This document shows positions 14,771 to 61,534 of a DNA stretch of 64,000 bases, in pieces; positions within the stretch are counted from its first letter, which is position 1, and the number at the start of each line of letters is the position of its first letter. The position numbers and the translations under genes are program-made. The notes beneath the pieces were generated by a model that saw only the letters and a program-made list of their open reading frames with translations, was not told the DNA's origin and searched no databases. The stretch covers positions 2,232,001 through 2,296,000 of the forward strand of contig NZ_CP035042.1 of NCBI RefSeq assembly GCF_009834345.1. The letters run 5' to 3'. Source of the DNA: Billgrantia tianxiuensis (GTDB taxonomy: Bacteria > Pseudomonadota > Gammaproteobacteria > Pseudomonadales > Halomonadaceae).

Positions 14771-14847
14771 AGGACCATAGCTCAGTTGGTTAGAGCGCCA
14801 CGTTGACATCGTGGAGGTCGGCGGTTCAAATCCGCCTGGTCCTACCA
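14771..14847 (+). tRNA. tRNA-Val(GAC), copy 1
   Basis: 77 nt including an encoded CCA. Acceptor AGGACCA/TGGTCCT, anticodon arm CCACG-TTGACAT-CGTGG with anticodon GAC, T arm GGCGG-TTCAAAT-CCGCC. The cloverleaf is complete. Confidence 0.97.
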
Positions 14848-14864
14848 GCCTTTTCGTCTTTTTC

Positions 14865-14941
14865 AGGACCATAGCTCAGTTGGTTAGAGCGCCACGTTGA
14901 CATCGTGGAGGTCAGCGGTTCAAATCCGCTTGGTCCTACCA
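14865..14941 (+). tRNA. tRNA-Val(GAC), copy 2
   Basis: 77 nt, 17 bases after copy 1 and nearly identical. The T arm is AGCGG-TTCAAAT-CCGCT: the first stem pair is A-T in place of G-C, a compensatory change. CCA is encoded. Confidence 0.97.
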
Positions 14942-58988: not shown

Positions 58989-60170
<1,182 letters not shown>

Positions 60171-60205
60171 AAGGTCATTCACACAATTGAGCCAACGAGG
60201 GGCGT

Positions 60206-60298
60206 CGGTAACAAGTCGAAGGGGAGGTCCTACGCCAGGGATGGCGTCGGTAGCGTACAGGGATGTATTCACAGTGCCTCCCCGAAGGCTTGTTGCCG
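60206..60298 (+). ncRNA. Multi-branched intergenic element with CsrA/RsmA-type GGGA loops
   Basis: 93 nt between gcdH and the CoA-transferase. Outer stem CGGTAACAAG (60206-60215) with CTTGTTGCCG (60289-60298), inner stem GGGGAGG (60221-60227) with CCTCCCC (60277-60283), and two hairpins inside with identical GGGA loops: ACGCCA-GGGA-TGGCGT (60232-60247) and TACA-GGGA-TGTA (60256-60267). GTACAGGGATGT (60255-60266) is a perfect match to the CsrA SELEX consensus RUACARGGAUGU. It ends 30 bases before the next start codon. Confidence 0.6.
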
Positions 60299-60328
60299 GA
60301 TCAGCCCCGAGTGAGCAAGGATCTCAAG

Positions 60329-61534
60329 ATGAGTGGACCTCTTGAAGGCATCACGGTGCTCGACATGTCGCGGGTACTGGCCGGCCCTTGGGCCGGCCAA
60401 CTGCTCGCCGACCTCGGGGCGCGGGTGATCAAGATCGAGCATCCAGAACGCGGTGACGACACTCGCGGCTGGGGGCCGCCATGGCTGGCCGCTGAGGATG
60501 AGGTCGAGCGCGTGGCGGCCTACTTCCTGTGCGCCAACCGCGGCAAGCAGTCGCTGGCAGTGGACGTTGCGAGCGAGCGGGGTCAGGCGCTGATCCGCCA
60601 GCTCGCCGCCGGTGCCGACGTCATGCTCGAGAACTTCAAGGTCGGCGGCCTGGCCAAGTACGGCCTCGACTACGCCAGCCTGAAGGCGCTCAACCCACGG
60701 CTGATCGGTTGTTCCATCACCGGCTTCGGCCAGGATGGCCCCTATGCGCACCGCGCCGGCTACGACTTCATGATCCAGGCCATGGGCGGGCTGATGAGCA
60801 TCGGCGGCGAGCCGGAAGGCATGCCGATGAAAACCGGCGTGGCCATTACCGACGTGATGACGGGGCTATATGCCACCATCGGCGTGCTGGCGGCACTGTA
60901 CGAGCGTGTGCGCACCGGGCAAGGGCGGCACGTCGACGTGGCGTTGCTCGACGTGCAGGTAGCGGCGCTCGCCAACCAGGCGCTCAACGCCCTGGTCAGC
61001 GGGGTGTCGCCCGAGCGTCACGGCAACGCCCACCCCAACATCGTGCCTTACCAGGCCTTTGCCTGTGCTGATGGGCATCTGGTGCTCACCGTGGGCAACG
61101 ACGCCCAGTTCTCACGCCTGGCTGAGCTGCTGGGCCATCCTGAGTGGGCCCGGGATGCGGCTTATGCCACCAATGCTGCCCGGGTGGGCAATCGTGAGCA
61201 GTTGGTATCTCTGATCCAGTCGATCTTCCTCACCCGTCGGCGCGACGAGTGGCTGGCCGAACTGGAGGCGCGAGGCATTCCCGCCGGGCCGATCAACACC
61301 ATTGCTGAAGTGTTCGACGACCCTCAAGTGAAACACCGCGGCATGCAGCGTTCGCTCAAGCGTGGCGAACTCGACGTGCCTCAGGTGGCCTGTCCGCTGC
61401 GCTTCGACAGCGAGCCTGCACTGAGCGAGGTGGCCCCGCCCCGGCTGGGCCAGGACAGCGACACGATACTCGCCGAGATGGGCCTGACCGCCGACGATAT
61501 CGCTCGCCTGCGGCGCGAGGGCATCGTGCGCTAG
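60329..61534 (+). CDS. CaiB/Frc-type CoA-transferase, probable glutarate CoA-transferase
   Basis: 401 residues from the ATG at 60329 (GTG 60311 also possible). Family III CoA-transferase: LEGITVLDMSRVLAGPWAGQLLADLGARVIKIEHP with the catalytic Asp likely near AHRAGYDFMIQAMGGLMSIGG, plus YQAFACADGHLVLTVGND and RGIPAGPINTIAEVFDDPQV. Next to gcdH in Pseudomonas-type clusters this enzyme makes glutaryl-CoA from glutarate and succinyl-CoA. Confidence 0.88.
   Translation: MSGPLEGITVLDMSRVLAGPWAGQLLADLGARVIKIEHPERGDDTRGWGPPWLAAEDEVERVAAYFLCANRGKQSLAVDVASERGQALIRQLAAGADVMLENFKVGGLAKYGLDYASLKALNPRLIGCSITGFGQDGPYAHRAGYDFMIQAMGGLMSIGGEPEGMPMKTGVAITDVMTGLYATIGVLAALYERVRTGQGRHVDVALLDVQVAALANQALNALVSGVSPERHGNAHPNIVPYQAFACADGHLVLTVGNDAQFSRLAELLGHPEWARDAAYATNAARVGNREQLVSLIQSIFLTRRRDEWLAELEARGIPAGPINTIAEVFDDPQVKHRGMQRSLKRGELDVPQVACPLRFDSEPALSEVAPPRLGQDSDTILAEMGLTADDIARLRREGIVR

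Follow-up and report, generated by a model that had tools for sequence, protein, structure and literature searches.

The element that precedes a CoA-transferase gene in Billgrantia tianxiuensis is, judging from sequence comparison, almost certainly one copy of a dispersed palindrome superfamily that includes the Yersinia YPAL/RU-2 repeats, and YPAL appears to be one branch of this wider superfamily. The best explanation, which we regard as evenly poised between right and wrong, is that of a YPAL-superfamily mobile palindrome whose GGA strand, once transcribed, may capture CsrA. The copy studied here lies in a window of 64 kb (the whole stretch of DNA that was analysed), in the gap between two genes of the same strand, from the stop at 60170 to the ATG at 60329. 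The features of the copy and its surroundings are as follows.

58989..60170, + strand: acyl-CoA dehydrogenase-family gene, the 5' neighbour (start placed by eye; no NCBIfam model above its own cut-off).
60195..60312, + strand: whole palindromic element, one dispersed copy (blastn and covariance-model matches genome-wide; predicted pairs from 60195/60312 inwards).
60199..60217, + strand: left outer arm, with partners within 60287-60308 (predicted fold; compensated arm-pair changes among nine own-genome copies).
60221..60228, + strand: left side of the inner closing stem, partner 60276-60283 (predicted fold).
60229..60250, + strand: hairpin 1, with hexaloop AGGGAT at 60237-60242 on a C-G pair, CANGGANG (fold; CANGGA conservation in own-genome copies).
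60253..60270, + strand: hairpin 2, with the SELEX-type site GTACAGGGATGT at 60255-60266 and hexaloop AGGGAT at 60259-60264 (fold; shuffle count; GGA conservation).
60268..60272, + strand: TTCAC, the conserved TTYAC stretch 3' of hairpin 2 (near-invariant in 32 rows from other genomes; not accounted for by CsrA).
60276..60283, + strand: right side of the inner closing stem (predicted fold).
60287..60308, + strand: right outer arm (predicted fold).
60317..60321, + strand: AAGGA, likely Shine-Dalgarno sequence, outside the element (sequence; partly unpaired in the fold).
60329..61534, + strand: CoA-transferase gene, the 3' neighbour; nearest model succinate-glutarate CoA-transferase (NF052585, 515.8 bits, below the cut-off of 750).

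The original prediction had described closed outer and inner stems around two GGGA-loop hairpins, and the sequence and predicted fold bear this out. The outer stem (60206-60217/60287-60298) and the inner stem (60221-60228/60276-60283) close around both hairpins, with further outer pairs at 60199-60203/60304-60308 and 60195-60196/60311-60312. In the fold of 60140-60400, the loop GGA bases of both hairpins were at least 0.97 unpaired; the predicted minimum pairs the loop A with the loop U in AGGGAT, so that a GGGA tetraloop is left. The SELEX-type 12-mer RTACARGGATGT occurs once in the 64-kb window (60255-60266) and in 0 of 100 shuffles, which upholds the earlier identification of hairpin 2 with the SELEX CsrA consensus. 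The distance to the start codon, given before as 30 bases, has to be corrected: the start is the ATG at 60329-60331 and the outer pairs reach 60312, leaving a gap of about 17 nt. The 60171-60331 leader folds at -69.2 kcal/mol, compared with -49.3 +/- 3.6 for 200 shuffled versions, none of which was as stable (z = -5.5). Because the window element is a repeat copy, this z-score reflects a palindromic dispersed element, not a gene-specific leader. As a separate observation, the Shine-Dalgarno region at 60315-60327, GAGCAAGGATCTC (GAGCAAGGAGCTC in some orthologs), could form a small GGA-loop hairpin of its own.

Copies of the element are widespread. In the own genome, blastn found 12 places, and a covariance model built from nine copies (R1) found at least 26 loci at E <= 2.6e-4 among the best 150 of 1457 candidates scored. 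Among these, the four loci L036-L039 are incomplete or contain inserts. The seven additional R1 rows at E <= 1 represent mirror matches from the opposite strand. The element is present in 38 of 41 congeneric genomes, the own genome included, with up to 75 matches per genome. A further model (R2) matched at least 51 of 274 gammaproteobacterial genomes, from at least 45 of 222 genera, at E <= 0.001; the 51 are a lower bound, with 17 candidates scored per genome. In a phylum-wide draw whose share of other classes is not stated, 16 of 299 genomes matched at E <= 1e-5, all of them from the same class or closer. In one genome, G279, 145 of the 150 scored candidates passed E <= 0.01; those with the weakest scores are fragmentary. 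A plasmid or phage origin was rejected, as neither of the two collections searched gave a match. The earlier suggestion of a dispersed repeat with recruited CsrA sites is thus borne out in its repeat part (26 own-genome loci; presence in 38 of 41 genomes of the genus and 51 of 274 of the class); its CsrA part stands at the level of motif and fold.

A short core pattern picked out at least 120 stretches in named genomes. The 80 loci listed come from Halomonas, Billgrantia, Vreelandella, Onishia, Stenotrophomonas, Marinobacter, Zobellella, Oceanisphaera, Rheinheimera, Saccharospirillum, Microbulbifer, Sodalis and Yersinia proxima, together with several less closely named gammaproteobacteria and one Spirochaetes MAG. 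R2 matched 78 of these 80. The other two, L111 and L084 (the latter from the Spirochaetes MAG), seem to have been picked up by the pattern by chance. Both were left out of alignment A6, as was L103 (a repeat of L082), and A6 holds 61 of the 83 remaining extractable named stretches (49 of 49 outside Halomonadaceae and 12 of 34 within it). The G279 alignment holds 100 loci, with L321-L327, three overlapping loci and weaker matches left out.

Within this family the loops are strongly conserved. Loops were counted in 32 rows that represent 29 other class genomes, each by its best match, with three neighbouring copies added and the row of the own genome removed. CANGGANG was found in hairpin 1 of 29 of these rows and in hairpin 2 of all 32. 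Each of the six fixed loop letters was kept in at least 31 of the 32 rows, and the four N positions varied, skewed to G and T. G279 carried CANGGANG in hairpin 1 of 100 and in hairpin 2 of 92 of its 112 copies, 192 loops altogether, the 112 rows being drawn from the 145 matches with the weaker tail mostly absent. Such loop counts lean to the consensus because R2 was built from pattern-selected copies, the other-genome rows are mostly best matches and the weak G279 tail is mostly absent. In the own genome, CANGGA was kept in hairpin 1 of 22/22 full-length copies, and GGA in hairpin 2 of 20 of the 21 full-length copies that have this hairpin. Duplicate views of copies were removed from the loop counts, and likewise from the orientation, arm and mismatch counts below.

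Six fixed and two variable positions match the CsrA consensus in both hairpins. A high-affinity RsmE target is described as an ANGGAX hexaloop that sits immediately on a stem and whose N and X may vary (PMC4005645), and the Rsm motif 5'CANGGANG3' is quoted in PMC6849547. The predicted fold of the window copy has this form of CsrA/RsmA site: an ANGGAX hexaloop directly on the stem with C-G closure. The start-to-start spacing of the two GGA motifs was 22-24 nt in 207 of 211 readable rows (of 245, A7-A9), a count that still contains a few duplicate views of copies. CsrA bridging is given as 10-63 nt with an optimum above 18 nt (PMC7652899), and the loop spacing would suit one CsrA dimer. Judging by the motif, the GGA strand would quite probably bind CsrA in vitro. 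In the 32 other-genome rows, TTYAC, GAGC and RGCG were about as invariant as the loops. For this reason something besides CsrA probably also reads the core, and a second reader of TTYAC, GAGC and RGCG might perhaps be a mobilising enzyme.

The stem structure is real. In 60 distinct rows, chosen by loop and TTYACRGCG letters and not by stems, we counted 273 compensated double-change cells, compared with 88 after column shuffling and 39-96 with the partners slid; nine own-genome copies showed compensated changes at 18 of 39 predicted pairs. The outer arms of G279 differ from copy to copy yet pair near-perfectly, with a median arm of 31 bp under the stop rule of the script. Three G279 loci (L225, L270 and L220:1255-1331) have unique near-perfect inverted arms of about 35-45 bp around the shared core, for which a target palindrome, inverted duplication and template switching are candidate origins. 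Template-switch correction of palindromes can make differing yet pairing arms without RNA selection, and the G279 arm pattern could come from such correction rather than from RNA selection. Mismatch type bears on this point. Among 239 copies, mismatches in the GGA-strand arms comprised 125 G.T versus 68 A.C (100 versus 68 as distinct events, p = 0.017). The difference was 48 versus 23 in other genera without Halomonadaceae (p = 0.004), 45 versus 41 in G279 alone (distinct events, p = 0.75) and 7 versus 4 in named Halomonadaceae (p = 0.55). Since cruciform DNA or palindrome correction should give equal G.T and A.C, the G.T excess points to the GGA strand as the one that folds when single; this strand looks constrained in its single-stranded form, be it RNA or ssDNA.

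Gene context was obtained with a simple codon-based gene caller made for this analysis. Overall, 161 of 190 copies lie between two nearby genes: 74 tandem sense, 47 tandem antisense, 26 convergent and 14 divergent; the orientation counts leave aside copies that fall inside a gene, far from any gene or at the edge of a locus (29 of 190; 8 of 112 in G279). The tandem copies are weakly biased to sense (74 versus 47, p = 0.018). This bias was found in Halomonadaceae, with 51 sense and 28 antisense among 79 tandem copies (p = 0.013), and in the own genome, with 17 of 21 sense; other genera pooled gave 23 versus 19 (p = 0.64). The 104 classified G279 copies were 27 sense, 29 antisense, 42 convergent and 6 divergent. 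Avoiding promoter regions and preferring gene ends, as these copies do, is usual for miniature mobile elements. For sense copies between tandem genes, the median distance from the model match is 58 nt to the preceding gene and 42 nt to the following one. Preservation of the loops in sense copies only was considered and not seen: in G279, loops were intact in 20 of 27 sense versus 24 of 29 antisense copies. A cis role at every copy is unlikely, because G279 has no orientation bias and its loop integrity does not depend on orientation.

The own genome has one CsrA match, of ordinary sequence, and a very similar CsrA is tabulated for Halomonas hydrothermalis (preprint PMC12889724). Across the class, csrA was found in 47 of 51 element-bearing versus 188 of 223 other genomes (p = 0.18); with the comparison limited to genomes of at least 90% completeness and no more than 5% contamination, the counts were 40 of 41 versus 172 of 195 (p = 0.09). 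Four element-bearing genomes gave no csrA match: G048, G109 and G140 (67-88% complete) and G236 (98% complete, with nine element matches). The co-occurrence is consistent with a CsrA connection and not probative; taken as proof, csrA presence goes in the expected direction without being significant.

The kinship with YPAL rests on order as well as on letters. The 168-nt RU-2/YPAL sequence in Table 1b of PMC2759123 has the same ordered core: compared by eye, hairpin 1, GAGCC, TACATGGATGTA and TTTACGGCG are shared in order with our copies, and YPAL likewise places two CANGGANG-type hairpins inside a dispersed intergenic palindrome. Our copies are intergenic too, with 5 of 190 called inside a gene. 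The difference lies in range, YPAL/RU-2 being listed for Yersinia sp. and Erwinia carotovora in PMC2229807. In the open-licence literature searched, we found no mention of YPAL with CsrA-type loops or as a class-wide family. The Rfam gathering scan of the whole window returned two tRNAs only, with three sub-threshold matches at the element; two tandem tRNA-Val (GAC) genes lie at 14771-14941 of the window. The Sodalis copy matched Ysr224 (RF02770) at 82.9 bits, above the cut-off of 70, on the strand opposite the GGA strand, and the window copy did so below threshold (15.9 bits, E 0.42), also on the opposite strand. Ysr224 differs in modelling that opposite strand, on which the loops lack GGA, in a relative of the element. 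Matches to miRNA families in the scan that gave the Sodalis match were far below their own cut-offs.

Other known systems share single traits. CsrB/CsrC and RsmX/Y/Z also carry several hairpin-loop GGA motifs per RNA, but they are dedicated sRNA genes, with 22 and 14 GGA motifs in CsrB and CsrC (PMC11882849). These decoy RNAs have their own promoter and terminator and many GGA sites, whereas the window element shows neither signal and is a dispersed repeat with two loop sites per copy. The name of the TwoAYGGAY RNA motif presumably refers to two GGA-containing loops. This motif is listed for gammaproteobacteria among others (PMC2864571), and it was absent from the Rfam matches of the window copy at E <= 5. 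REP/BIME with RAYT and ERIC are many-copy intergenic palindromes as well; REPs, however, measure 20-40 bp (PMC3733652) and are tied to RAYT transposases (PMC2817692). PF01797 (Y1/HUH) had 0 matches in the own genome (G000) and G279, one in G129 and four in G123, the latter two being element-bearing. A RAYT/REP identity is unlikely given the absence of PF01797 from the own genome and G279, though it is present in G129 and G123.

We then consider the CoA-transferase site itself. The CoA-transferase is present in 56 of 61 genus genomes, and 30 given as loci were examined. Of the 30 orthologous gaps, 8 contain the full element, 7 keep core-less arm remnants and 15 are without it. Seven gaps were recognised as element-bearing by script, and the assignment of L337 and of the seven core-less remnants was made by eye. 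The element is therefore optional at this site. The 8 full copies retain CANGGANG in 15 of their 16 loops, with varying N positions, the copy found by eye having a damaged second loop. The element here looks old and dispensable, with its loops retained where it remains. In these gaps no target-site duplication was resolved, and the 15 without the element may reflect either its loss or a lack of insertion. Five gaps (L344, L345, L349, L352 and L353) have lost the core and both hairpins and keep parts of the stalk arms, as if the tip were preferentially deleted. No promoter-like or terminator-like match to sigma-70-type and intrinsic patterns was found in 60100-60400, which leaves the proposed small CsrA sponge unsupported as a separate sRNA and speaks against an independent sRNA gene; a co-transcribed decoy pool is possible.

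The original prediction of a CsrA-responsive leader for glutarate CoA-transferase is weakened by these gaps and by the lack of overlap between the hairpins and the Shine-Dalgarno sequence. As a cis switch, CsrA on the hairpins would reach the Shine-Dalgarno GGA and repress the CoA-transferase. Two strong candidate sites do lie upstream, AAGGA precedes the start codon in the 8 element-bearing orthologs, and a weak site at the ribosome-binding site can gain CsrA through high-affinity sites that lie upstream of it (PMC4005645). The 58 nt from the hairpin 2 GGA (60261) to the Shine-Dalgarno GGA (60319) fall within the 63-nt bridging limit but close to it; moreover, Shine-Dalgarno sequences contain GGA anyway, the hairpins end before the AAGGA at 60317, and 22 of 30 orthologous gaps lack the core or the whole element. 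We consider this reading quite improbable. Another possibility, which we would call conceivable and somewhat doubtful, is an RNA stability or processing element: as has been suggested for YPAL and ERIC, its long stalk would shield polycistronic mRNA or divide it into segments, CsrA being irrelevant or secondary. The position of tandem sense copies after one gene and before the next fits it, as do the gene-end preference (42 convergent versus 6 divergent in G279) and the survival of core-less arm remnants in 7 of 30 orthologous gaps. A review states that YPAL elements may affect the stability of upstream transcripts (PMC2229807), and palindromic repeats are cited as mRNA stability determinants in Yersiniae (PMC2267715). 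Nevertheless, stability gives no account of fixed loop letters beside changing stems.

The hairpins and TTYAC could also be recognition features of a mobilising enzyme, a transposase or similar nuclease reading folded ssDNA, with the CsrA likeness coincidental. HUH enzymes and integron integrases read a folded single strand. Conservation of the entire core, TTYAC, GAGC and RGCG included, points this way, as do the lack of orientation bias and of sense-specific loop integrity in G279, and YPAL is reported in a review to have moved recently and to show target-site duplications (PMC2229807). On the other hand, coincidence would have to produce the CsrA consensus at six fixed and two variable positions in both hairpins, and PF01797, the sole transposase family searched, is missing from the own genome and G279 (one match in G129, four in G123). 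We regard this reading as unlikely.

If, as we favour, the mobile palindrome captures CsrA, intergenic copies would be co-transcribed with neighbouring genes, and the sense RNA would present two high-affinity CsrA sites bridgeable by one CsrA dimer. Each sense copy would then draw CsrA to its host mRNA and may alter stability, Rho access or translation locally, and the copies together would make up a distributed CsrA decoy pool. The hairpins might be kept since CsrA binding aids the tolerance or movement of the element, not for any need of the CoA-transferase. That the biological role runs through CsrA comes close to an even chance in our judgment. More tentatively, the family may be a superfamily of miniature mobile palindromes that spans the class and has a paired high-affinity CsrA site in its conserved core, and whose insertions seed Csr regulon members and a distributed sink. 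Should the loops bind CsrA, a mobile element would have spread the sites of a global post-transcriptional regulator across gammaproteobacteria, each insertion being a ready-made CsrA docking station. This would offer a concrete route for the species-to-species divergence of predicted CsrA regulons (PMC12889724). Models of the Csr system would have to include a hidden titration pool, and YPAL-type repeats would acquire a molecular partner in CsrA.

Some copies are arranged in unusual ways. Divergent copy pairs about 200-310 bp apart occur in several genera (L101, L104, L110, L114 and L121). Some Halomonas-like copies (L011, L012 and L052:2572-2787) carry a branched insert in hairpin 1 with its own GGCCATGGATGGCC hairpin, which gives an extra GGA loop. 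At L363:1788-3152 (G513:C1:94287-95651), six tandem 227-bp units each hold one element and a GTAGGAGCGGCTTCAGCCGCGA-type palindrome, and twelve CANGGANG loops were read by eye on one strand of the array.
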